Of a DNA stretch of 64,000 bases, positions 2,973 to 45,148 are shown piece after piece. The DNA comes from Candidatus Binatia bacterium (GTDB taxonomy: Bacteria; Desulfobacterota; Binatia; UBA12015): contig JAQWJE010000040.1 in assembly GCA_029248525.1 (NCBI GenBank), positions 1-64,000 of the forward strand. The letters are read 5' to 3'. Made by a program: the position numbers and the translations under genes. Each line of letters opens with the position of its first letter. Position 1 is the stretch's first letter. A model generated the notes under the pieces. The model was given only the letters and a program-made list of their open reading frames with translations, was not told the origin of the DNA and made no database searches.

Positions 2973-3595
2973 GTCGAGAGAAAGCAGCGCCCGGAAAGTC
3001 CATTGTCCGGGAATGGGCCGAGGCCATCATCGTGGCGTTGCTTTTGGCCCTTTTCATAAGGACTTTTTTCGTTCAGGCCTTCAAAATCCCTTCCGGATCG
3101 ATGCTGCCGACACTGCAGATCGGGGACCATTTGCTCGTCAACAAGCTGCTTTATGGCATCCGGGTCCCAATTGTCGGAAAGCGATATTTTGACTTCTTCG
3201 CGCCGGAGAGAGGGGATATCATCGTCTTCGTCTTCCCGGAGGACCCCGCCAAGGACTTCATCAAGAGAGTCGTGGGCATCCCGGGCGATGTGCTTGAGAT
3301 TCGCGAAAAAAAACTATTCCGCAACGGCCAGATGGTCGATGACGGAGATGAGCCTTATGCCCAGTACCTCGACCAGTCACAGAATAAAGTCCCCCGAGAC
3401 AATTGGGGACCGGAAACGGTTCCCGAAGGAAATGTCTTTGTATTGGGGGACAATCGTGACCGGAGCTATGACTCCCGGTTCTGGGGCTTCGTGCCCTTTG
3501 AGAACATCAAGGGCAAGGCCGTCGTCATTTATTGGTCCTGGGACGGAGAAGAAACCTGGGTTCGGTTCAATCGTATCGGAAACCTTCTGCAGTAG
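2969..3595 (+). CDS. lepB: Signal peptidase I
   Basis: I place the start at TTG 2969, which overlaps the lepA stop (TTGA) and has AAGGTGG a few bases upstream; this gives 208 residues. One N-terminal membrane helix ([16 protein letters not shown]) precedes the catalytic box [10 protein letters not shown] (nucleophile Ser). The general-base Lys box is [11 protein letters not shown], and [14 protein letters not shown] is the conserved box E. The enzyme cleaves signal peptides on the outer face of the inner membrane. A longer reading from 2837 is open but would lie inside lepA and lacks a better start. Secreted products in this window, such as the beta-helix protein, would be its substrates. Confidence 0.95.
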
Positions 3596-3683
3596 AACCG
3601 GCTCTTCAGCCGATCGAGCATTGTTTTCGAGTTTCCAGCCGGCTCCCGGGGGTTCTCATTTTCGTTCCACGTTCTATCTAAAC

Positions 3684-3699
3684 GGCCCTGATAGGGGCC
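3684..3699 (+). other. Short hairpin in the leader of the nucleotide-sugar dehydrogenase gene
   Basis: GGCCC TGATAG GGGCC forms a 5-bp stem with a 6-nt loop, ending shortly before the GGAGG ribosome binding site at about 3707. A second small stem, CGGCT CTTC AGCCG (3599-3612), lies just after the lepB stop. Neither has a T-tract, so neither is a convincing terminator. The 123-nt gap 3596-3718 otherwise shows nothing I can name; a promoter for the downstream gene is probable but not readable. Confidence 0.3.
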
Positions 3700-3718
3700 A
3701 TGTTCCCGGAGGAAACCC

Positions 3719-5074
3719 ATGTCCCTGAGTGAGAAGCTCAAAAATCACGAAGCCCGTGTCGGCGTCATCGGCCTCGGCTACGTTGGTCTGCCCTTGGTTG
3801 TCGAAATGGCGGAAGCTGGTTTCGAGGTTGTTGGAATCGATTCCGACCCACGCAAGGTGACCGAGATTAATGAAGGTCGCTCGTATATTGGCGACGTCAA
3901 AACCGAAACACTCGCGGCTCTGGTCAAGGCGGGCAAGATCTCGGCGACAACGGATCCAAGCATCCTGGCCGAACTTGATACCGTCAGTATCTGTGTTCCC
4001 ACGCCTCTGTCCAAGACCAAGGATCCCGACGTCAGCTACATTCTGTCGGCGGTCTCCTCGATCAAGAAGCATCTGAAGTCAGGCCAGTTAATCGTTCTGG
4101 AGAGTACCACCTATCCTGGAACGACAGACGAATTGATTCGAACGGAATTGGAAAGCGAAACTTTCCAGTCGGGCAAGGATTTCTTCCTCGCCTTCTCGCC
4201 GGAGCGAATCGATCCGGGCAACAAAACTCATGGGACGCGTAATACGCCCAAGGTTGTTGGCGGGATCACTCCTCGCTGCACGGAACTCGCGGTGCTGCTC
4301 TATTCGCAGTTCATCAAGACGGTGGTGCCCGTGTCCAGTGCGCGAACTGCCGAGATGGTGAAGCTGCTGGAAAATACTTTCCGAAGCGTCAATATCGGCC
4401 TGGTCAACGAGCTGGCTTCGATGTGTGACACCCTCGGTGTTGATGCCTACGAAGTGATCGATGCGGCAGCGACCAAGCCCTTCGGCTTTATGCCTTTCTA
4501 CCCGGGGCCGGGTCTCGGCGGGCATTGTATTCCCATCGACCCCCATTACCTTGCGTGGAAGTTGAAGGCGCACGATTTCACCGCACGCTTCATCGGATTA
4601 GCGTCCGAAGTGAACCAGAAAATGCCGGCGCTGGTCGTCGAGAAAGTCGCGGATGGACTGAATCACCACGGCCGTGCCGTAAAGGGCTCTCGGGTCCTGG
4701 CTCTCGGCGTTGCCTATAAAAAGGACGTCAGCGATATGCGTGAGTCGCCGGCCTTGTCGGTAATCCATCAACTCGTCGAGCGCGGTGCTTCCGTCAGCTA
4801 TCACGATCCCTATGTGGCCGAGATGGTGACCGAAGATGGTGCCATGGCCAGTGTGGAGCTCTCGGAGGAGACTTTGCGGCTCACTGATTGCGTGGTCATC
4901 TTGACCGATCATACCGAGTACGACATCTCGTGGGTGGTCGAGAATTCCCGTCTGGTGGTCGATACTCGAAACACAACCCGCGGCTTGGAAGATCGGTTTG
5001 GTGAAAGGATCATCAAATTGGGTGCGCCGGCTGGGTACTCGCAGCCGCAGGTCAAGTTGGCCGAAAGCGCCTGA
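3719..5074 (+). CDS. Nucleotide-sugar dehydrogenase, UDP-N-acetylglucosamine/galactosamine 6-dehydrogenase type
   Basis: A 451-residue UDP-sugar dehydrogenase with the N-terminal NAD motif VGVIGLGYVGLPLVVEMAEAG. The catalytic segment GLGGHCIPIDPHYLAWK contains the nucleophilic Cys; the form 'GGHCIPIDPHYL' is typical of WbpA/TviB-like UDP-HexNAc dehydrogenases rather than UDP-glucose dehydrogenases. The C-terminal domain has GVAYKKDVSDMRESPA. The expected product is a UDP-N-acetylhexosaminuronate for surface polysaccharide. GGAGG stands 8 nt before ATG 3719. It is the last gene before a strong terminator. Which HexNAc it uses cannot be told from sequence alone. Confidence 0.85.
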   Translation: MSLSEKLKNHEARVGVIGLGYVGLPLVVEMAEAGFEVVGIDSDPRKVTEINEGRSYIGDVKTETLAALVKAGKISATTDPSILAELDTVSICVPTPLSKTKDPDVSYILSAVSSIKKHLKSGQLIVLESTTYPGTTDELIRTELESETFQSGKDFFLAFSPERIDPGNKTHGTRNTPKVVGGITPRCTELAVLLYSQFIKTVVPVSSARTAEMVKLLENTFRSVNIGLVNELASMCDTLGVDAYEVIDAAATKPFGFMPFYPGPGLGGHCIPIDPHYLAWKLKAHDFTARFIGLASEVNQKMPALVVEKVADGLNHHGRAVKGSRVLALGVAYKKDVSDMRESPALSVIHQLVERGASVSYHDPYVAEMVTEDGAMASVELSEETLRLTDCVVILTDHTEYDISWVVENSRLVVDTRNTTRGLEDRFGERIIKLGAPAGYSQPQVKLAESA

Positions 5075-5098
5075 TTCGTATCGGCATGAGAAGAAAGA

Positions 5099-5130
5099 GG
5101 GCGGGTCCTTGGCGGGCCCGCCCTTTTTTT
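5099..5130 (+). terminator. Rho-independent terminator after the nucleotide-sugar dehydrogenase
   Basis: GGGCGGGTCC (5099-5108) pairs with GGGCCCGCCC (5114-5123) across the 5-nt loop TTGGC, with one T-G wobble, followed directly by seven T (5124-5130). This is the clearest intrinsic terminator in the window. It separates the plus-strand gene from the convergent oxidoreductase gene, whose stop codon begins at 5131. Confidence 0.9.
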
Positions 5131-6256
5131 ATGCCGCGATGACGTGCTCCCAGTGGCGCGAGTTGCTGGACCTTTCGATGGCCTCGAGGACCTGAAGATT
5201 TTGTCGTCCGTCGGAGAAGTTCGGTGATGGCGACGAGCCTGTCGCTACGGCAGCCAGAAAGTCGAGGATGGTATTGGTGAAGCTGTGTTCGTACCCCAGG
5301 AGATGTCCCGGCGGCCACCAGCCCTCGACGAAGGGATGGGACTCGTCGGTTGCCAGAATGGTGCGGAAGCCACTTTCGCTTCCAGCTTCTTCATAGAATT
5401 CCAGCTCGTTGAGTCGCTCGAGGTCAAACGAGAGGCTGCCCTTCTCGCCATTGATTTCAAACCTGTTGGCGTTCTTCCGGCCAGCGGCAAATCGAGATGC
5501 CTCCATCGTCCCGATGGCACCATTTTCGAAGCGCAGCAGGCTCAGGGCAGCGTCGTCGACATCGACCGCTCCGGTGCCTGATCCGTCTTCCAGGGGGCGC
5601 TGGTCGACGAAGGTCGTCAAATGACCGCTGACTTCGAGGATCTCGCCGACAAGGTGGCGGGCGAGGTCCAGCGAGTGTGATCCGATATCGCCGAGCGCTC
5701 CGGATCCGGCCCGGGTCTTCTGGAGCCGCCAGACCAGAGGGAACTCGGGGTCGATGATCCAGTCCTGGAGGTAGGTTCCCCGGAAATGGAAGATGCGTCC
5801 GAGGCGGCCCTCCTCGAGCAGTCGTTTGGCCAGAGCGACGGCGGGTACGCGGCGGTAGTTATGGCAGAGCATATGGACGATGCCGGCAGCTTCGGCGGCT
5901 TGCTCCATCGCGAGAGCCTCCGTGACCGTATTGGTCAGCGGCTTCTCGCAGAGAATCGCCTTGCCTGCGGCTGCCGCGGCAATCGCGATCTCCGCGTGCG
6001 AATCGCCCGGCGTACAAATGTCGACGATGTCGATATCGTCGCGTTGGATGACTCTCTGCCATGAGGTATCCGACTCCGCGAAGCCAAGGGTCTCCGCTGC
6101 GATCTCCGCGGCTTTGGCATCGCGGCCGCAGACCACCCTCAATTCGGGCGTGAGTGCCGGCTTTGCGAAATGTTTGGCCTGTCGCCAGGCATTGGCGTGG
6201 GCCCGCCCCATGAATTGATAGCCGATCATGGCGACTCGTGCGGATGTCTTCTTCAT
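5129..6256 (-). CDS. Gfo/Idh/MocA family NAD(P)-dependent oxidoreductase
   Basis: Start chosen at ATG 6256 ([20 protein letters not shown]), 4 nt after the stop of the upstream gene; this gives 375 residues, normal for the family. The N-terminal Rossmann motif is [17 protein letters not shown], the signature [12 protein letters not shown] carries the conserved Glu-Lys-Pro, and [16 protein letters not shown] has the usual catalytic His region. These enzymes oxidise or reduce sugars, inositols or their derivatives. Paired with a TIM-barrel isomerase/epimerase, it probably acts in sugar or inositol-like breakdown (inference). The substrate is not deducible. Confidence 0.85.
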
Positions 6257-27041: not shown

Positions 27042-28763
27042 TTATTGCCCGAGAGTCAGTTTTTGAACGACCAGTTCTGCTCGGAGGTCATGCCCGGCCT
27101 GAGAGAGATGAATTCCGTCTTCTCCAAGATCTATCTGCGAGTCCAGTGCCGAGAACGTGTCGATGATTTGCCTCGCAGGGTAGGCCTCGAAGATCGCGTC
27201 ATTCATGGCTGAGAGGTTGAAACGCAATTGACGATCCGAGTTGTGATGAAGAGGCGTCGAAGTCGTGATGAAGATTGGAATCTCGGGATCGAAGGTCGCG
27301 ATCGACGCAGCATGCTCTCGGTAGGCGCCGGCAATCTCCCGGATGCTTTTATGAGGGAGCATGCCTTCGGACCAGAAGCGCATATCGTTGGTCACAAAGG
27401 AAAAGATGAACACGTCCGGTGTCGGACCCTTCAGCGTCCGTTCGAGCTGGCTCCATGCGGCAAGGTGGCGAGGTGGGAGAAAGATTCCGAAATCTGCAAC
27501 GGTCGCGCCTCCAATTGCTTGTGTCGCATCGATTTTCCAGTCGAGGCCCTCGCGATCATAGAGTCGCTGAGATACTTCGGACCAGGTCTCCAGACCGGAC
27601 CATTCCAGCGCGGTGTTGGAGTCGCCGAGGTGGCTGATGAGGATTTCACCGTCTCCGTTTAGGTCGGAGATCGCCTGACCGGAAGCAACGCCGGGGTCGA
27701 GGACGACAAGTGTTCGGTCCTCAGTGGAGATCGCGTACAAGGTGCCGTGGGCGATGTCGAGCGCATTCAATGGCGCCGCTGTTTCATGGGATCCGATGAT
27801 GTTGGGCTCCGACGAAGTATCCAGGATATAAATTCCATCTCGACCTGAGACATAGGCTGTGTCGTGATAAGCCTCGATGTCCGTTGCCTCCGTTCCGACC
27901 ACTCCCGAGTGCAAGGTGCTTGCGGACTCCGGTTCTTCGAGATCGATGACGAAGAAGTTCTCGTCGGGGCTGGCGGTCGTCAAAAGGGCACGCCCACTGT
28001 TTATGTCGAGCCCGGTAACGTGACCGACGGGCAGGAACGCAACCTCCTTCAGCGCCGACAGATCCTCGATCGACAGAATATGGAGACCCTTCCGCGATCC
28101 AATATAGGCAAAGCCACCCTCCACGTGAATTTCGGTGACACTCTCGCGCAGGTCGAAGGAGGCGGTTTGCTGCGGTGCGCTCATCTCCGATACGTCCAGA
28201 ATGAAGACTTCGGGAGCGGTGGGATCCTCGGTGGTTCCTAAATAAACGGAGTTTCCGGAAGCGAAAATGGCGGTTCCCGATTGTTGGCTCGGTGCATCGT
28301 AAGTGCCAACGACGCTGGGGTGGTCAAGGTCGTTGAGGTTGAGGATCGCAAGTTCGGATTCAGGATCTGTGGTGGCAACGAAGGCTCGCAAGGCTGTACC
28401 GGCAACGGCAGTTGGCTGGCCGGAGATTCGAGCGTGGCCGTGCTTCAGAAGGCCGCGCTTGCCGTCCGAGGCGCGTTGGTAGATCTGCAGGCCTGCCGGG
28501 TCCGTCTGGGCGATGAAAACGAGATTGCCGACGGCCTCGATTTCCAGGACGGGCGCACCGCTATAAGTCTTCTGGTGCTTAGGTGTAGCTGTCACGGAAC
28601 CACAACCGGCCAAAACGAAGAGGAGCATTCCGAAACTGAAAAACGTACGAACGAATCGCTGTATTTCCGGAGGCCGGCTGTTTTCTCCCCAAACGCGTTC
28701 GCATGAATCCGCGGTCGCAAAGATCTCTTTGATTGGTATTGCTCGCATCGGCTGACTCGTCAT
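27042..28763 (-). CDS. Lipoprotein with LVIVD-type repeats and a C-terminal SGNH (GDSL) hydrolase domain
   Basis: About 573 residues from ATG 28763 (TTG 28766 and ATG 28745 are alternatives; none has a good ribosome binding site). A hydrophobic stretch ends in LLFVLAGCG, a lipobox with Cys near residue 54, so the n-region is unusually long. Residues about 75-365 are repeated blocks of the LVIVD kind, each like 'LNLNDLDHPSVVGTYD', expected to form a beta-propeller. DLNGDGEILISHLGDSNTA then starts an SGNH domain: Ser of GDSN (about 382), Asn of FVTNDMRF (about 459), and Asp/His of EDGIHLSQAGH (about 549/552). This suggests an envelope-anchored esterase or glycan deacylase with a binding propeller. 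Substrate unknown; its position at the end of the polysaccharide block suggests a glycan. Confidence 0.75.
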   Translation of the reverse strand: MTSQPMRAIPIKEIFATADSCERVWGENSRPPEIQRFVRTFFSFGMLLFVLAGCGSVTATPKHQKTYSGAPVLEIEAVGNLVFIAQTDPAGLQIYQRASDGKRGLLKHGHARISGQPTAVAGTALRAFVATTDPESELAILNLNDLDHPSVVGTYDAPSQQSGTAIFASGNSVYLGTTEDPTAPEVFILDVSEMSAPQQTASFDLRESVTEIHVEGGFAYIGSRKGLHILSIEDLSALKEVAFLPVGHVTGLDINSGRALLTTASPDENFFVIDLEEPESASTLHSGVVGTEATDIEAYHDTAYVSGRDGIYILDTSSEPNIIGSHETAAPLNALDIAHGTLYAISTEDRTLVVLDPGVASGQAISDLNGDGEILISHLGDSNTALEWSGLETWSEVSQRLYDREGLDWKIDATQAIGGATVADFGIFLPPRHLAAWSQLERTLKGPTPDVFIFSFVTNDMRFWSEGMLPHKSIREIAGAYREHAASIATFDPEIPIFITTSTPLHHNSDRQLRFNLSAMNDAIFEAYPARQIIDTFSALDSQIDLGEDGIHLSQAGHDLRAELVVQKLTLGQ

Positions 28764-28840
28764 CAAGTCATGCTGGATTGACGTGAAAGTAGCAATCCGA
28801 CGCCCGGTCGGTGGGAAAGCGCACGCGGCGAAGGTGTAGC

Positions 28841-29494
28841 CTAACGCCTCTCGGGTCGCCGGAGGGCTTCTGCAAGGGCTCGCGGGTCGGGAGATTGCTC
28901 CAATGCACCGATCATGGCCACGGCACTGGCTCCGGCAGCGAGCGCCTCGGGGGCTGTTGTGGCGGTGATCCCACCAATGGCAACCAGAGGCTGGGTCGTG
29001 ATTTGGCGAACAGCGCGCAGCCCCTCGATGCCCTGTGGCGCCTCAGCGTCCGGCTTGGAAGTGGTCGGGAAAATCGGTCCGAAACCCAGATAGTCGACTG
29101 GCAGGTTTCTGGCGGCGCGGACCTGAGCGGGGTTATGGGTGGAAAGCCCGATCAGAAATCCCTCGGGTGTCATGGTGCGAGCCACCGAAGGCGGAAGATC
29201 GGTTTGCCCGAGGTGGACACCATCCGCGCCAGCGGCAAGGGCGAGATCGACTCGGTCGTTGAGGACGAGTCGGGCGCCGGACGGACGGAGAATCTCGAGG
29301 AGTTCACGGGCGACAGACAAGGTTTGCTCGGCCGAGCTATCTTTTGCACGGAGTTGGAAAATTCGTGCGCCACCGGCGACAAGCGCATGAGCCAGAGCCA
29401 GCTGCGGCGCGGAGTCGGCAACGGTTCCCGCGAGATTCAGGATCGCATAAAGGCCGCAGATATCAGCCTCTCCGAGATTGGCAGTTTTGCTCAT
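28841..29494 (-). CDS. thiE: Thiamine phosphate synthase
   Basis: A 217-residue TIM-barrel protein with the ThiE motifs FQLRAKDSS (start of the phosphate/pyrimidine site), LVLNDRVDLALAAGADGVHLGQTD and FGPIFPTTSK, then VAIGGITATTAPEAL. It couples hydroxymethylpyrimidine diphosphate with the thiazole phosphate. It overlaps the upstream DUF218 gene by 4 nt (ATGA). No THI-box riboswitch precedes it, as expected for an internal gene. Its presence at the end of a polysaccharide block looks incidental. Confidence 0.92.
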   Translation of the reverse strand: MSKTANLGEADICGLYAILNLAGTVADSAPQLALAHALVAGGARIFQLRAKDSSAEQTLSVARELLEILRPSGARLVLNDRVDLALAAGADGVHLGQTDLPPSVARTMTPEGFLIGLSTHNPAQVRAARNLPVDYLGFGPIFPTTSKPDAEAPQGIEGLRAVRQITTQPLVAIGGITATTAPEALAAGASAVAMIGALEQSPDPRALAEALRRPERR

Positions 29495-30168
29495 CGGGTT
29501 TTCTTCTCGGAGGGAGCGGGCTGAGGTTGGATCTCGGTGGAAGGAGCCTCGGGGCTCAGGCCGAGCCAGGAAGGGAGGAAATATTTGAACAAGTAGAGAC
29601 CCAGTTTGATGGTCTCATTGCTCACCTCAATTAGAGGTTTTTCATGCCACCACCACCCTGAAATGTCGCTATAGCTTCTCTCGCAAGTCGTCATCCAGAC
29701 TTTGCCGCCGATCGGTTCGAGGGCGATTCGCAGGGATTCGCCGGCACGACGAGCGTGGCTCGGTGAGGTCACCGCAATGATGCTTCGGTTGCCGGTCTGC
29801 GCTGCCCACTCGCTGACGGCGGCCGCATCGGCCCACGTGCTGCGACCGGAGGGTATAATGACTTCGGCGGAGGCTGGCACGCCCGCGCGGGCGGCGAGTT
29901 TGGCTCCGAGTTCTGCATCCGAGTAGGGCATGCCGACGGCCCGCAATTCCGGACGAATCCTGCTGCCGGTGAAAACAACAAGAGGCGCCAGCCCCTGGCG
30001 AAAAAGTCGGGCCGAGCATTTGGCGCGGGTCTCGAGTTTGCCGGGAAATACGTAAAGGGCATCGGCGGTGGGCGGGAGCTTGTCGCTTCGTGAGAGCAGG
30101 TCGGGCAGATAGGGAAACGCGAGCACGCCGATAGCGAGGACGGTGAGGATCTGCAGGAAGCGCCGCAA
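29491..30168 (-). CDS. DUF218 (YdcF/SanA/ElyC-like) membrane-anchored protein
   Basis: A 225-residue protein with one N-terminal hydrophobic segment (FLQILTVLAIGVLAFPYL) and a DUF218 domain: ADALYVFPGKLETR, a PSGRSTWADAAAV segment, and IIAVTSPSHARRAGESLR. Members of the family (SanA, ElyC) are linked to envelope integrity and undecaprenyl-carrier use, though the biochemical activity is unclear. It lies between the flippase and thiE genes, 9 nt after the flippase stop, so a role in the lipid-linked glycan pathway is plausible (inference). The C-terminus is a short Pro/Lys-rich tail. Confidence 0.75.
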   Translation of the reverse strand: MRRFLQILTVLAIGVLAFPYLPDLLSRSDKLPPTADALYVFPGKLETRAKCSARLFRQGLAPLVVFTGSRIRPELRAVGMPYSDAELGAKLAARAGVPASAEVIIPSGRSTWADAAAVSEWAAQTGNRSIIAVTSPSHARRAGESLRIALEPIGGKVWMTTCERSYSDISGWWWHEKPLIEVSNETIKLGLYLFKYFLPSWLGLSPEAPSTEIQPQPAPSEKKTR

Positions 30169-30177
30169 CGGTCTCTC

Positions 30178-31692
30178 CTAACTCTCGGGCGGGGGTGGCA
30201 ATCGGAAGATCGGGCCGATCTTCCGAATCACGTTTGCGGTTGCGGGGTATTTCTTCGTCACGATCGCAACGCCCTGAACCAGATCCTCCGCGGCGAAAAA
30301 GCCGCCCCAGAGAAGCGCCAGAGGATAGCTGATAATGAGCCCGGCCTTGGCTGCCAAACGAATCGTGAGATCTTCGGCCGGAATCAGGTGGGATACCGCG
30401 AAGAGGAGCATGGCAGCAGCAGCCGCGATGGCGACACGGCCGTACTGATAGGGAACATGGTAGAGCCTCAAGGAAACTACCAGCGCCAAGGTTGTCTGGA
30501 TCACGAAAGCGATCAGAGTTGCCCAGGCCGCTCCTGCCGGCCCGTATACGGGGATCAGAAGGTAGTTGAGGATCACATTGATCACGGCTGCGGTGATCAC
30601 GGTATAGGTCCGGAGGATTGTCCGTTTTGTGAACGCCGGCCCCAGATTCACCATCGGCATGATTCCGTCGAAGATCAGACCGAAGGCGAGGATGGGGATG
30701 AGTGGCGCGGCGCCCCAATAACCTTCCGGCGCCATGATTTTGATAAAATCGGGTGCGAAGGTCGCGAGGCCCAACCACAGAAAGAGGTAGATCGCGAGGA
30801 GATAGCTGGTGAGGTGGGCAAAGAGCTGCGGTGCCTCGGGGTCGCGTCGGTGGGAGTAGGCGAAGGGCCCCCAGGAGAGCTGGAAAGCCGTGATGATAAG
30901 AAGCAGGATTTCGCCGAACCGATAGGCGAGAGAATAGACGCCGACATCATCGACCGAGTAGTAGTGACGAATGAACCACCGATCGGATAGATCCAGCAGG
31001 AAGGTGGCGACGCCGGCAGGCACCAGAGGCAAGCCGAATTTCAATTGCTGCTGAATATCGACCCAGCGGAAACCCGATCGAAGCATTCGGAATGTGGTGC
31101 CGGTCAAAAACAGGCACATGGTAAATTCGGCGAGGAATTGAGCCCCAATCACGCCGGCTGCTCCTTGATGAAAACCGACGACCAGGACCACGGCGACAAT
31201 TGTGGCCAGAGCACTGCGCAGGAGAGACCATTTGGCGTAGCGCTTGGACTCCTCTCTTGCCCGCATGATCGAAAACGGCATGCGGAGAAGCACCTTGGCC
31301 AGAACGGTCGCCGTTCCCATCAAAATCAGGAACCAGAGAGCTTCATTGTCGAGGAGCCATCCAGCGATGAACCCCGAGAAGGCAAGTGGAACGAGGCTCA
31401 GCGGTACCGAGAAGAGGAAAACAATCCATATGGCGGCCGCGATGACGCGCTCGCGGCCGGCATCGTCGTCGTGGTCGTAGTAAAAGCGGAAAATCCCGAC
31501 GGTTTGCCCCAGATTCATCACGACAAACATGGCCTGCGTGTACATCGCGACAAGCGCCAGGATTCCGTAGTCGCCCGGAGTGAGGTATCGGGTGTATACA
31601 GGAATCAGCAGGAAGCCGACGACTTTGATTCCGTAGTTCCCGAGGCCGTAGATCATTGTGTGGCCGAGAAGGGTTTTGAGTTTTGCGAGCAT
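30178..31692 (-). CDS. Polysaccharide flippase (Wzx/MVF-like)
   Basis: A 504-residue integral membrane protein with 12-14 predicted hydrophobic helices. It begins with HTMIYGLGNYGIKVVGFLLI and has VYTRYLTPGDYGILALV, the classic polysaccharide-transporter start. The C-terminal half carries paired helices ending near the positively charged tail. It would flip undecaprenyl-linked oligosaccharide to the periplasm for the polymerase encoded at 32955-34952. Start ATG 31692 lies only 9 nt from the divergent start of the beta-helix gene. Confidence 0.9.
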   Translation of the reverse strand: MLAKLKTLLGHTMIYGLGNYGIKVVGFLLIPVYTRYLTPGDYGILALVAMYTQAMFVVMNLGQTVGIFRFYYDHDDDAGRERVIAAAIWIVFLFSVPLSLVPLAFSGFIAGWLLDNEALWFLILMGTATVLAKVLLRMPFSIMRAREESKRYAKWSLLRSALATIVAVVLVVGFHQGAAGVIGAQFLAEFTMCLFLTGTTFRMLRSGFRWVDIQQQLKFGLPLVPAGVATFLLDLSDRWFIRHYYSVDDVGVYSLAYRFGEILLLIITAFQLSWGPFAYSHRRDPEAPQLFAHLTSYLLAIYLFLWLGLATFAPDFIKIMAPEGYWGAAPLIPILAFGLIFDGIMPMVNLGPAFTKRTILRTYTVITAAVINVILNYLLIPVYGPAGAAWATLIAFVIQTTLALVVSLRLYHVPYQYGRVAIAAAAAMLLFAVSHLIPAEDLTIRLAAKAGLIISYPLALLWGGFFAAEDLVQGVAIVTKKYPATANVIRKIGPIFRLPPPPES

Positions 31693-31701
31693 GAATTGAA
31701 T

Positions 31702-32964
31702 ATGAAGAGTACTCTGCTGAAGTCCCGAGTGCGAGGGGAAGAAATCCTCGCGATTTTAATGATTCTGATGTTGGTGGTGGCAATGCCGGCAGATGCCCGC
31801 GATTGCGGAGGCCGGAAGGCTTGCGATTGCGGGGACAAGGTTGTCCGTGACCATATTCTGACCCGCTCCCTCGGGCCGTGCCCGGGCGTGGGACTGCGCA
31901 TGGGCCCTGGCGCGACGCTCGACGGTAACGGCGAAGCGATCCGCGGCTCGGGGCGCGAGGCCGGGATTATCTTTGATGAAAAGGCCATCGGCGCAGTGGT
32001 TCGGAACCTCGAAGTCTCCGGGTTCAAGCGCGGGGTTCGGTTTGCCGGGGTGCGGGGCGCGCGTCTGGAGAACGTTCAGTCTCACCATAATGGAGACCGA
32101 AAGACGGCGGTTGGCTACGGGGTCGATCTCGCCCGGGGAGCGTCCGAGAATATTCTGGTGGGGTTGCGCGTGTTTGAGAACGCCGATGAGGGAATTCATT
32201 TCGGTACGGGCGCGAACCGAAATCGCCTGGAGGACTCGGAAGTCTTCGACAACTACCGCGAGAATATCTATTTCCTGCAGAATCGAGGGAATGAGGTTCA
32301 TCGATCGAAGCTCCATGGGGGCGGCGCGGCCGCTTTCTATATCAAACATGCTCCGGAAACCGTGCTGTCGGAGAACGAGATTTCTGATCGTCCCATCCAG
32401 CTTCGGGGTCGCTCGGATCGAGTGCGTCTGGTCGATAATCGCTTGCGAAAAAGCTCCGTGAATCTGGAGCCCTTCAAGGACGACGTTCCCGAGGGAGTGC
32501 GAATTTCGGGTGGACAGATCGAAACGCCCGGCCACGCCTGCGTCAGGCTGCGGGGGGCCCGGAAGGTTTGGGTCGAGAACGTGAAATTCTCCTGTCGGGG
32601 GAGTGTTTCCGTGGAGCAGGGCGCCGACGTTCGCGTGACTCTGGACTCGTTTACCGAGGCGCGGTGTGAGGGCACCGGAGCCGTCACCCAGCTGGGATAT
32701 CTCGAGCAGCGTTTCGTCGATGCTCAGGGCGCCGGTGTCGGCGGTGTGACGGTGCTGGACAATCAGGGGGTTTCCTGGGGAAAGTCGTCCAGCGACGGTC
32801 GAGTGGAGCGTGTCCTTCCGCTGGCGACGCTGACCTGTCCCGCACGGGACGTGTCTTCGACGGGATTGCGAGCCTCTCGAGGCACCTGGACCGAACCGCT
32901 GAATCCGAAAGCCGGCAAGGTCGTGCTGGTACCGGTCGAGCCGGCCGGAGCAGATCAGGGCTGA
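31702..32964 (+). CDS. Secreted right-handed parallel beta-helix protein
   Basis: ATG 31702 gives 420 residues beginning with a signal peptide (basic start, then ILAILMILMLVVAMPADA, cleavage likely after ADA). The mature part starts with a Cys-rich patch (DCGGRKACDCGD) and runs into beta-helix repeats with periodic Asn/Gly turns, e.g. VVRNLEVSGFKRGVRF, NILVGLRVFENADEGIHF, NRLEDSEVFDNYRENIYF. This fold is shared by pectate lyase-like and alginate C5-epimerase-like proteins; no specific catalytic signature was recognised. It is the only plus-strand gene within the polysaccharide block: its start is 9 nt from the flippase start and its stop overlaps the stop of the sugar transferase gene by 10 nt. 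A role in trimming or epimerising the local polysaccharide is inference. Confidence 0.8.
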   Translation: MKSTLLKSRVRGEEILAILMILMLVVAMPADARDCGGRKACDCGDKVVRDHILTRSLGPCPGVGLRMGPGATLDGNGEAIRGSGREAGIIFDEKAIGAVVRNLEVSGFKRGVRFAGVRGARLENVQSHHNGDRKTAVGYGVDLARGASENILVGLRVFENADEGIHFGTGANRNRLEDSEVFDNYRENIYFLQNRGNEVHRSKLHGGGAAAFYIKHAPETVLSENEISDRPIQLRGRSDRVRLVDNRLRKSSVNLEPFKDDVPEGVRISGGQIETPGHACVRLRGARKVWVENVKFSCRGSVSVEQGADVRVTLDSFTEARCEGTGAVTQLGYLEQRFVDAQGAGVGGVTVLDNQGVSWGKSSSDGRVERVLPLATLTCPARDVSSTGLRASRGTWTEPLNPKAGKVVLVPVEPAGADQG

Positions 32965-34952
32965 CCGAGTTTCAGGGCGATTCGATATTCCGAAGAACGC
33001 CCCGAGAGACGCACCTCAGTGCCGATCCCGATTCCGAGCAGGCCCCAGAATAGAATCTGCAGCGCGATGTTGTCGAAAGGATCGAAAGCCTGCATCGCGA
33101 CTAGGAATCCAAGAATCGCGAGGATCACAGCCCAAAGGACCGACCGCAGTCCAGGATCATTCACTCTGGATTGGGTGCGATAGAGGGAGAAGAGAGCGGC
33201 TGCAAAAATCCACATCATGGCCCCCCAACCGAGAAGTCCATTTTCGAGAATCAGCCGCACATTGGCGTTCGCGCCCTCGATCAAATTTTGCGCGCTTCCC
33301 AAACCCGGAATATTCAATTCGCCCAGCGTTCTGGGCCCCATGCCGAATAGAAGTTCCTTCCACGAGAGCTGCCCAAGCTGCGCGCATGCTTCCTGCGCCG
33401 AGCCGCAGATCATGCTTCCTGCAGTGAACCCTGCGCTGGTGAGCCGATGATCTACCGCAAGGAAAGAGGCTGGCGCGAGAATCACCAGAGCGACAAGCCC
33501 GGCGAGTGGCGTGAAATGTCGCCACACGTAGATGGTGATGATCAGGGAGAGAGCGGCGAGACCCGCCGGGTTTTTCGTTAGAAGAACGCCGACCATCACC
33601 AGCGTAGTCGCTGCGATCCAGAAGTCGCGGCTGCTGCGATTCTGAGCGCGTGCAAGGCTGCATAGAACGCAGGGCACGCCGAGCAGGAGATAGGTGGACA
33701 AGGCAATAGGACTGCCGAGCGTCGAGGAGATCCCCACGGAGCTCATGCCCAGCCCGGTCGAAAGCTGGGGAGCGGATGTGAAGTATTCGGCAAAAGCGAC
33801 TTCAAGAATACCGACCATGGAAATTGTCAACGAGGTCAGGGCGACGGCACTGATCGCGCTTCGGACGAAGGATTTCGTAAAGGTGCCGTTGATGATGGCC
33901 AGCGTGACGATGAAGCCCGTTATCAGATAATAGGCGGACCCCCGCATCGCTTGCAGCGGCGCCTCGGAGAGGAATGCCGAGCTGAGCGCGAGGAGAAGAA
34001 ATACTGCGATGGGTGTGTTCAGCGGGGTACGATAGAGGTTGATTCGGTCCTTGGGCGCATGTCGCAGCAGCATCCAGAGAGCGCCGAAAGCGATGACGCC
34101 ATGTAGCGGATTGACCTTCACGCCGAGTGTCTCGATATACAGGTTCTCGAGTGAACCGGAAGGAATGAAGGATACGAAGAGCAGAAGGACCAGCAGGAAA
34201 GCCCCGAGCGTCAGCCAGCGATTCAAAACCTTCAGGGCTGTCAGGCAGACGAGCTGTGCATCGAGAAGCAGCGATCGGTGCTGGATATAGAGATGATCGA
34301 AACGAAGCTTGTTGCGCGCCGACGTGAAATATCCGCCGCGCACCTGTGCCAGGCCGGTCATCCCGGGCGCGACGCGAAAACGATCAGCGTAGTTCGGGAT
34401 CTCTTCAAGGTACCGCTCGAGAAAGACCGGTCGCAGGGGGCGCGGCCCGGCGAAGTTCATTTCCCCGCGCAAGACGTTGAGGAGTTGCGGGACCTCGTCC
34501 AGTTTTGACTTCTTCAGGAATTTGCCGACGGGCGTGTAGAAATCATCCTGAGCCGTGAGCAATCGCCCGCCGATTTGCCTTTCCGAACCCTCTCCGAGAG
34601 TCCGGAATTTGTACATCGTATAGAGAATCTGATTTTTGCCGGTTCGAATTCCTGCATAGAATAATGGCCCGGGGCTGGTGAGCTTGACCGCGATCGCGAC
34701 CATGAGCAGAACGGGAGAGAGTACGGCGAGTGCCGTGATCGCCATCAATGCCTGGAGCAGGTAGCGGACTGGCGATTCAGGAAGTGCAGGCGGAATCTCC
34801 CGCTGGCTCGCGGGCGCTTTTTCGGCCTCAGTTGCCACTTGTTCGGCTGGAGGCTCTGACTTCGATACGACGACTAGTTTCGGCACTTGGCGGGGACTTT
34901 CTTTGTTCGGGGAACCAGCATCAGGGTGCCCGAACCACGCGGCTGCGGTCAA
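32955..34952 (-). CDS. Polyprenyl-phosphate sugar-1-phosphate transferase fused to an O-antigen polymerase/ligase domain
   Basis: A 665-residue fusion. Residues 1-60 are a hydrophilic tail; about 62-255 form a bacterial sugar transferase (membrane helix LLQALMAITALAVLSPVLLM, then TMYKFRTLG, SKLDEVPQLLNVLRGEMNF with the Asp-Glu pair, and AGPRPLRPVFLER). From about 245 to 650 follow ten or so membrane helices with a loop containing FGMGPRTLGELN and LILENGLLGWGAMMW, typical of Wzy/WaaL-like proteins. The first part would put sugar-1-phosphate on undecaprenyl phosphate in the cytoplasm; the second would polymerise or ligate repeat units in the periplasm. These are normally separate proteins. The frame is continuous through the junction, with no stop. 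It overlaps the asparagine-synthetase gene by 4 nt. Confidence 0.82.
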   Translation of the reverse strand: MTAAAWFGHPDAGSPNKESPRQVPKLVVVSKSEPPAEQVATEAEKAPASQREIPPALPESPVRYLLQALMAITALAVLSPVLLMVAIAVKLTSPGPLFYAGIRTGKNQILYTMYKFRTLGEGSERQIGGRLLTAQDDFYTPVGKFLKKSKLDEVPQLLNVLRGEMNFAGPRPLRPVFLERYLEEIPNYADRFRVAPGMTGLAQVRGGYFTSARNKLRFDHLYIQHRSLLLDAQLVCLTALKVLNRWLTLGAFLLVLLLFVSFIPSGSLENLYIETLGVKVNPLHGVIAFGALWMLLRHAPKDRINLYRTPLNTPIAVFLLLALSSAFLSEAPLQAMRGSAYYLITGFIVTLAIINGTFTKSFVRSAISAVALTSLTISMVGILEVAFAEYFTSAPQLSTGLGMSSVGISSTLGSPIALSTYLLLGVPCVLCSLARAQNRSSRDFWIAATTLVMVGVLLTKNPAGLAALSLIITIYVWRHFTPLAGLVALVILAPASFLAVDHRLTSAGFTAGSMICGSAQEACAQLGQLSWKELLFGMGPRTLGELNIPGLGSAQNLIEGANANVRLILENGLLGWGAMMWIFAAALFSLYRTQSRVNDPGLRSVLWAVILAILGFLVAMQAFDPFDNIALQILFWGLLGIGIGTEVRLSGRSSEYRIALKLGQP

Positions 34953-43433: not shown

Positions 43434-44222
43434 TCAGAGGAAGCGTCGTCCCTGCTGTCGCAGGCGTCGGCCATCTTCCTTTGTAGGGAAAGAAAAGTAG
43501 GTTGCACTCTCTCGGTCATTCGGAATCGTCTCTACGTTACCAGCTTCCAGGCGATCAATCGCCCGGATAATCAGCCTCGCGCCGGTGGATTTGGTCCGCC
43601 GGATCAGGCTGTCCTGTGTATCTTCGTCGGTAATTTCGACCTTTTCCTGTAGCAGGATCGGCCCATCGTCGAGGTTTTCGTTCATGAAATGGACGGTGGC
43701 GCCGGTCTCCTTCTCGCCATTTGCGAGGACCCAGAAACTCGGCAGGCGTCCTCGGTAACGCGGAAGAAGGGCGCCGTGGACGTTCAGGCAGCCCAATTTG
43801 GGTAGTGCGAGGATTTCGGTCTTGAAAACCTGGCTCGCATTGATCGAAATGACCAGATCGACTCCGAGTTCTCGCAATTTCGCATGATAATCGGGGGCAT
43901 TGACGCTGGTCGTCGATATTTCCGGGATTCCGTGGGCCTTGGCGACCGAGGTGACCGAAAAATGTCCGGGAACCGGAACCCATCCCGAGGCGAGTCCGAG
44001 TGCTTTACGGCTGGCATAGCGGATGGATTGCTTCAGGAATTGGGTGACTCCGTACACATTCAGGTGCTCGAGCGCGGTCGAGGTCCAGGTCTGTTTCGGC
44101 ATCAAGGTGGGGAGAATGGTGATGCCGACGAAGTTCTGGCGCCTTTCGGAGAGGACGGTCTCGAGAAACTGAGGCAGGTAGAGGCAATCTTCCTGTGTAA
44201 TAATGAGGGTTTTTAGGGGCAT
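43434..44222 (-). CDS. Formyltransferase-family protein, probable sugar N-formyltransferase
   Basis: Start at ATG 44222 (MPLKTLIITQEDCLYLPQF) gives 262 residues; the longer open frame to 44747 overlaps the deacetylase. The formyltransferase core shows VISINASQVF (catalytic Asn), LNVHGALLPRYRGRLPSFW (catalytic His, folate-binding loop) and ENLDDGPILLQEKVEI (catalytic Asp). It lacks the C-terminal tRNA-binding domain of methionyl-tRNA formyltransferase. With 10-formyl-tetrahydrofolate it could formylate an amino sugar, as in some O-antigen loci; no sugar aminotransferase is seen in the window, so the amino sugar would come from elsewhere (inference). Confidence 0.8.
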   Translation of the reverse strand: MPLKTLIITQEDCLYLPQFLETVLSERRQNFVGITILPTLMPKQTWTSTALEHLNVYGVTQFLKQSIRYASRKALGLASGWVPVPGHFSVTSVAKAHGIPEISTTSVNAPDYHAKLRELGVDLVISINASQVFKTEILALPKLGCLNVHGALLPRYRGRLPSFWVLANGEKETGATVHFMNENLDDGPILLQEKVEITDEDTQDSLIRRTKSTGARLIIRAIDRLEAGNVETIPNDRESATYFSFPTKEDGRRLRQQGRRFL

Positions 44223-44236
44223 TTCGAGTTTCCGTC

Positions 44237-45148
44237 TCAGGGGTTCATCATGTGGGGTTTGTCCGTCGCAGGCAATACGGGAATTTCGGGCCCTGCGAGA
44301 TGTCCGGCGGTGGTCAGGACGTCTCGAATTGGAGCGAACCGGAAATCGCTCAGAAGTCGGCGAAGTTTCGGTTCCATAGCCTCCAGGCGCCAATAATGCG
44401 TTGAAAACCCTCGTTTTCCCTTGATGGGGAGCCGTGGCTGCTCCGGATCGATTTCCCAAGGATGGAGGTACACGACGGCGGGTTGGTTTTCCATATGGAC
44501 CCGGCGCATACCCCATTGCATGTATTTGTAGGGAAGTAGACGCAGATAGGCTCCGCCGCCGAGAGGGAAATTCCGTCCTCCGATCGCCATGGTCGTCATC
44601 GGAAATTCTGCCAACTTGCGCCCTTCGCTCTCGTGCACGGTGAAGGGAAAGCGCTGCGCTCCGGGGATGCCATAGAGAGGATCCTGAACGGGGAAGACGC
44701 TGGAGTCGTAGGTCAGGCCTGCGTCCACCATCACATCGAGTGCCCATAGAGACTTCGCAGTGACCGAGAAGGAAGGTGCTCGATAACCAAGGACCTCCAC
44801 GCCTGGTACGGCGCGAAGAATTTCGAGGGACTGCAACAGATCTTCCTCGAACAATTCGCGTCCCTGCTCGTAGACGAGTCGGTGGGTATGCCCGTGCGTT
44901 GCGATTTCATGGCCCGCCTCGGCAATTTCCTGCACCAGATCGGGGTGCCGGACCGCGTTCCAGGTCAGGATGAAAAAGGTTCCTCGGACATCGAACTCCT
45001 TGAGGAGTTTCAAGATCCTGCGGGTGTTGGGAACCACTCGGCTTTCGTAACGGTCCCATTGGTCCAGCGGGATTTTGTCTTCGAAGTCCGATACCTGGTA
45101 CCAGTCCTCGACATCGACGGAGAATCCATTGATGATTTCGGAGCTCAT
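44237..45148 (-). CDS. Polysaccharide deacetylase of the XrtA-associated (DUF3473) type
   Basis: Start at ATG 45148 gives 303 residues. NGFSVDVEDWYQVS carries the catalytic Asp in the form typical of this subgroup, EIATHGHTHRLVYEQ the metal His pair, and GYRAPSFSVT motif 3. The C-terminal DUF3473-like part includes FPLGGGAYLRLLPY and VVYLHPWEIDPEQPRL. This subgroup is known from exosortase A exopolysaccharide clusters; no signal peptide is visible. It is 14 nt before the formyltransferase gene and overlaps the upstream glycosyltransferase gene by 4 nt. Confidence 0.9.
   Translation of the reverse strand: MSSEIINGFSVDVEDWYQVSDFEDKIPLDQWDRYESRVVPNTRRILKLLKEFDVRGTFFILTWNAVRHPDLVQEIAEAGHEIATHGHTHRLVYEQGRELFEEDLLQSLEILRAVPGVEVLGYRAPSFSVTAKSLWALDVMVDAGLTYDSSVFPVQDPLYGIPGAQRFPFTVHESEGRKLAEFPMTTMAIGGRNFPLGGGAYLRLLPYKYMQWGMRRVHMENQPAVVYLHPWEIDPEQPRLPIKGKRGFSTHYWRLEAMEPKLRRLLSDFRFAPIRDVLTTAGHLAGPEIPVLPATDKPHMMNP

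Follow-up and report, generated by a model that had tools for sequence, protein, structure and literature searches.

The window, by which we mean the whole 64,000-nucleotide stretch of DNA analysed, encodes on its minus strand a putative lipoprotein composed of an LVIVD-type propeller and an SGNH hydrolase domain (open reading frame 27042..28766). The protein comprises 573 amino acids with the ATG codon at 28763 as start and 574 amino acids with the alternative TTG start at 28766; a further alternative is the ATG codon at 28748. The open reading frame is not interrupted in its own frame, the remaining two frames contain 16 and 11 stops, and the order of parts proposed by the earlier note, namely a lipobox, LVIVD repeats, and an SGNH catalytic set within one chain, was confirmed by the single intact frame, Pfam, and AlphaFold2. 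A frameshift or the erroneous joining of two genes, which according to that note would have overturned its claim, was looked for and not found; since the coding frame is continuous and the order of the two domains and the junction between them recur in many independent genomes, the fusion of two genes through a sequencing or assembly error can be dismissed as practically impossible.

The gene is the last one of a minus-strand run that includes genes for a flippase-type Polysacc_synt protein (30178-31692), a DUF218 protein (29491-30168), and ThiE (28841-29494), the latter being separated from it by about 75 bases. Further upstream are genes for a sugar-phosphate transferase, an XrtA-type amidotransferase, glycosyltransferases, and an O-antigen ligase/Wzy-type protein, as well as two polysaccharide deacetylases, chain-length and export proteins, and an XrtA-associated ATPase. 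Thus, it is true for the window that the gene closes a polysaccharide locus, as the earlier note had pointed out, but this setting is not kept in the relatives examined, around which no conserved polysaccharide operon was seen. The link between the gene and the polysaccharide locus is weakened also by the fact that thiE lies between them. Three other genes of the window are mentioned here for their own sake. The protein encoded by 32955-34952 (minus strand), possibly a rare fusion, combines a sugar-phosphate transferase domain (residues 66-243) with a C-terminal polytopic O-antigen ligase/Wzy-like part lacking a Pfam match. A right-handed beta-helix protein is encoded on the plus strand (31693-32964) within the minus-strand polysaccharide locus. 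The reading frame 43434-44747 (minus strand) specifies a Formyl transferase domain (residues 277-397) that is preceded by about 175 residues that are not coding-like, and its true start is probably internal (MPLKTLIITQED...).

At the N-terminus, direct reading of the sequence reveals a good h-region followed by a lipobox (FSFGMLLFVLAGC), in which the LAGC motif (28602..28613, minus strand) provides Cys55 as the candidate lipidation site. Between this cysteine and the start codons that could be used lie about 48-54 residues, which is equivalent to an unusually long n-region: about 40 residues separate the nearest usable starts (TTG 28766, ATG 28763, and ATG 28748) from the hydrophobic stretch that precedes LAGC. 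In addition, codon-position GC is flatter and less coding-like over the first 50 codons, and because of this and the distance of the lipobox from the start codons the true start is unsure. Lipidation at Cys55 is plausible. The relatives L006, L013, L007, L003, and L002 possess ordinary-looking signal peptides and L052 an N-terminal membrane helix, as judged by reading their sequences, and therefore lipid anchoring is not a trait of the family. The lipobox motif on which the membrane anchoring suggested previously was based can be read in the window protein but is not common to the relatives examined.

The propeller (27687..28583, minus strand; residues 8-306 of the mature protein) was assigned by the LVIVD model of Pfam (PF08309), AlphaFold2, and structural superposition. 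LVIVD scores 29.7 bits against a cut-off of 20.2, with only one repeat being significant alone, and the window protein was not reported in a whole-genome LVIVD scan at an E-value of 0.001. An internal-period test of the window propeller alone gave a value of 2.34, which is not above the shuffles (maximum 2.37), whereas the same test for the propeller of L052 gave 4.52 versus 2.30. With one significant LVIVD unit and a self-similarity that does not beat the shuffles, the sequence by itself does not reveal how many repeats there are. The AlphaFold2 model, which was built from a seven-row alignment and has a mean pLDDT of 81 (79-96 for most of the propeller), predicts 28 strands ahead of the SGNH domain, corresponding to seven four-stranded blades. 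The prediction of the whole chain that the earlier note had recommended thus yielded a seven-bladed propeller followed by a canonical SGNH fold, in agreement with the propeller proposed there from a run of LVIVD-like repeats, one Pfam repeat significant alone notwithstanding. Seven-bladed WD40 proteins match the modelled propeller with a Z-score of about 32 and an rmsd of about 2-2.5 Å over 260-283 residues; this match of the predicted structure denotes a common fold and not a common function.

LVIVD repeats are commonly carried by surface proteins. The repeat has been described for this type of protein (PMC2447325), and the window protein resembles the group in having a repeat above the Pfam cut-off and in being a predicted surface protein. 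It differs from the choice-of-anchor B proteins (TIGR04312) in scoring far below the cut-off of that model (23.2 versus 100 bits), and most LVIVD proteins met in this analysis lack an enzyme domain. An established ligand of LVIVD propellers was not found in the literature searched. LVIVD-propeller proteins, mostly of about 480 amino acids, are also encoded by approximately 35 of 200 small genomes (relatives of G148; L061-L084 and others); the N-terminus is prepilin-like in those whose full sequence was read, which suggests that the propellers may be displayed on pili. In another protein (L090, G325:C31), an LVIVD propeller is followed by a C-terminal region resembling phage tail-collar or fibre proteins.

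The C-terminal SGNH/GDSL hydrolase domain (27045..27677, minus strand) is recognized by PF13472 (Lipase_GDSL_2; 43.1 bits, cut-off 32.9, E-value 8.7e-11) and PF00657. Alignment and reading of the sequence located, all on the minus strand, block I (GDSNT, 27612..27626) with the nucleophile Ser383, block II (GGAT, 27501..27512) with Gly420, block III (TND, 27384..27392) with Asn460, and block V (DGIH, 27108..27119) with Asp550 and His553. These five residues are invariant across the seven-member family alignment; the catalytic set read previously as GDS, TND, and DGIH is therefore present and is extended by block II. When modelled alone (pLDDT 81, pTM 0.83), the domain adopts a three-layer alpha/beta/alpha flavodoxin-like fold that matches SGNH esterase structures with Z-scores of about 20 (2.4-2.6 Å over 186-189 residues), the close matches including the carbohydrate acetylesterases Est24, CE3, Axe2, and PbeAcXE, among others. 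In one stand-alone relative (L028, G009:C97:4483-5028) GDGN replaces GDSN, and since the catalytic serine is thereby exchanged for glycine, this protein is probably inactive or re-purposed.

The segment DLNGDGEI (27642..27665, minus strand), a possible metal loop at the N-terminal edge of the SGNH domain, is positioned immediately before SGNH strand 1, the strand that ends in GDSN. The underlying motif D-x-N/D-G-D-G is present in the fused proteins, with D-S-G-A-D-G as the version of L002, and most of the class's stand-alone SGNH proteins (L008, L009, L011, L015, L038, and L039) carry a variant of it shortly downstream of their signal peptide. Two further proteins, L005 1303-3561 (minus strand) and L014 19-2211 (plus strand), consist of a polytopic membrane protein without Pfam match and the same type of SGNH domain, whose edge reads DRNGDG or DRNHDG; a stand-alone SGNH gene is located directly downstream of the L014 fusion gene. 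As the stand-alone proteins and the membrane-protein fusions share it, the motif is the edge of an SGNH subfamily, and an inter-domain linker was ruled out because stand-alone relatives begin with it. Compared to the EF-hand/dockerin pattern D-x-[DN]-x-D-G-x-[ILV]-x-x-x-[DE], positions 1, 3, 5, 6, and 8 fit, but position 12 is histidine in the window protein and alanine or cysteine in the relatives; with the acidic ligand at this position missing, a dockerin or EF-hand loop was rejected too. The calcium-binding-like loop of the earlier note thus retains its resemblance to a DxDxDG metal loop but is no separate segment between the domains. SGNH esterases of family CE3 have a known structural calcium site, located in another loop (PMC9487903).

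An N-terminal part with propeller-type repeats combined with an SGNH domain was found at 12 loci in the genomes searched. Ten of these belong to the class of the window genome, where they are distributed over eight species, with three loci in the window's own genome; paralogues of the same order are present there on contigs C33 (L003) and C57 (L002). Within the same family the order occurs in G002, G004, G007, G008, G011, and G012, and in a different family in G017. The copy of G008 (L027/L018, G008:C8:7696-8934) has one in-frame TAG between its halves and represents either a decaying gene or a sequence error. A second genome of the window's species (63% complete) also carries both paralogues, but the window locus is mostly missing from it, which precludes a comparison of orthologues. 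No propeller-SGNH fusion was found outside the class among 395 genomes across the phylum.

The other two loci encode full-length relatives in bacteria with small genomes (1.1 and 0.8 Mb), which we infer from the size and gene content of these genomes to be probably Patescibacteria: L052 5785-7509, with 28% identity to the window protein over 473 columns, and the G777 protein (L114 4600-6408), with 25% identity over 620 columns and scores of 60.8 bits for LVIVD and 38.8 bits for Lipase_GDSL_2. Apart from the window protein, the members from the class have a shorter N-terminal part of about 200 amino acids, and among those scanned only the G017 protein passes the LVIVD cut-off. The short form is homologous to the long propeller according to hhalign (probability 98.7%, E-value 1.8e-16), a test that comprised neither L002 nor the G008 copy, whose placement rests on the family alignment and search. 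The junction of the window protein, ...VLDPG...G..I.DLNGDG...IS.LGDSNT, is near-identical in L052, which favours a fusion shared by these two proteins. In the SGNH tree the window protein is placed on a long branch and none of the starred sets contains it, so that the tree does not distinguish a single fusion event from several.

With the window protein as sole query, a search of genome contigs retrieved no relative; phage records contained no match, and the matches in plasmid records were confined to propeller-type repeats in other proteins. The earlier note had regarded the architecture as belonging to no standard family. Indeed, neither Pfam nor NCBIfam contains a model dedicated to it, but the architecture search proposed there showed that the order recurs and is not unique to the window, and the presence at 12 loci rules out a one-off fusion. 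None of the papers returned by the literature searches describes an LVIVD propeller combined with an SGNH/GDSL domain. We are apparently dealing with a small, recurrent, sparse, and undescribed family, of which many annotated members may exist elsewhere.

Both domains are known already, as is the plan of an N-terminal beta domain followed by a C-terminal SGNH domain. With the SGNH superfamily (PF13472, PF00657), the window protein shares the fold, the four catalytic blocks, and a score above the curated cut-off, but compared to typical members it has in addition the N-terminal propeller and the conserved D-x-N/D-G-D-G edge. The carbohydrate esterases of family CE2 are composed of an N-terminal beta carbohydrate-binding part and a C-terminal SGNH domain (reviewed in PMC9487903). 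The window protein has the same plan as these and relatives such as PbeAcXE, on whose SGNH domain its own superposes with a Z-score of about 19, whereas its N-terminal part is a seven-bladed propeller and not a beta-sandwich binding module.

By computation, the locus holds one intact gene for two predicted folds with a complete catalytic set, in a fusion that recurs. As the most probable function, with a probability of about 0.5, we propose a secreted and probably outer-membrane-tethered SGNH serine esterase that O-deacylates cell-surface or extracellular polysaccharide and uses its propeller as a docking module. The protein would be exported, lipidated, and then tethered, probably to the outer membrane; the seven-bladed LVIVD propeller would dock the enzyme on a surface polymer or hold the latter; and the C-terminal domain would catalyze ester hydrolysis by a Ser-His-Asp mechanism with an oxyanion hole formed by Ser383, Gly420, and Asn460. 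In this way O-acyl groups, most likely O-acetyl groups, would be removed from surface polysaccharide by hydrolysis rather than by transfer. The envelope esterase suggested by the earlier note is plausible on the basis of the folds and the catalytic set; the substrate and the deacylation are what we infer. A surface glycan as substrate is suggested by the neighbours of the genes, i.e. the polysaccharide locus in the window, an AT3-SGNH gene (G017), a propeller-sulfatase gene (L052), and murein genes (G777). Against a glycan esterase it has to be considered that the SGNH fold is just as well suited to acting on lipids, thioesters, or polyesters and to transferase reactions, that the neighbourhoods differ between members, and that thiE and the DUF218 gene separate the window gene from the flippase gene; against tethering, that the lipobox is distant from the start codon and absent from the relatives examined.

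An unlikely alternative, albeit one to be taken seriously, is a cell-surface hydrolase of lipids or polyesters (of the lysophospholipase, arylesterase, or TesA type) whose propeller serves as a LIS1-like platform for protein-protein docking. TesA, arylesterase, and PAF acetylhydrolase are indeed among the fold matches of the SGNH model, and in the PAF acetylhydrolase Ib/LIS1 holoenzyme (1vyh) a seven-bladed propeller likewise cooperates in trans with an SGNH enzyme. This is an analogy only, as two separate eukaryotic cytosolic chains are compared with one predicted exported bacterial chain; moreover, neither fold match carries specificity, and several members lie in gene contexts connected with glycans.

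Rather improbable is acyl transfer, in which the SGNH domain would move acyl groups from a membrane-bound AT3 or MBOAT partner to polysaccharide, as PatB, AlgX/AlgJ, and WssI do with their membrane partners. Structures of PatB match the fold well (Z-score about 18), and many polymer acylation systems pair an MBOAT protein with SGNH proteins (PMC12148441). Furthermore, the window's own genome contains six AT3 genes above the cut-off, and the G017 homologue adjoins the gene of an AT3-SGNH acyltransferase, in which PF19040 was found. The window protein, however, scores as Lipase_GDSL_2 and was not reported for PF19040, the AT3-associated SGNH type, at E-values up to 1; none of the proteins scanned from the interval 24.9-63.7 kb of the window was found to be of the AT3 or MBOAT type, and most relatives have no recognisable neighbour of this kind.

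Quite improbable is a murein O-acetylesterase, which would act on peptidoglycan and not on exopolysaccharide. The peptidoglycan O-acetylesterase 4k3u is one of the fold matches, and the gene that comes immediately after the G777 gene encodes a Mur ligase and is followed by MurA-like and MreB genes; this context, however, is that of one member only, and the window copy lies beside an exopolysaccharide locus.

For the preferred reading, a polysaccharide esterase guided by its propeller, a second gene of L052 is of interest. Divergent from the propeller-SGNH gene, the gene 3183-5609 (minus strand) encodes the same type of propeller, likewise fused to a hydrolase, but here the catalytic domain is a sulfatase (PF00884 and SGSH_C); the two propellers share 38% identity. 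The occurrence of related LVIVD propellers on adjacent SGNH and sulfatase proteins suggests, as a tentative extension, that the LVIVD propeller may be an exchangeable module for docking to surface polymers on glycan-editing enzymes, including those of bacteria with reduced genomes, and that these proteins might form an undescribed class of propeller-guided enzymes that remove decorations from glycans. If the propellers do not bind polymer, the window protein would be one more exported SGNH esterase; if they do, the ligand of the repeat and the target of the enzyme could be found together.
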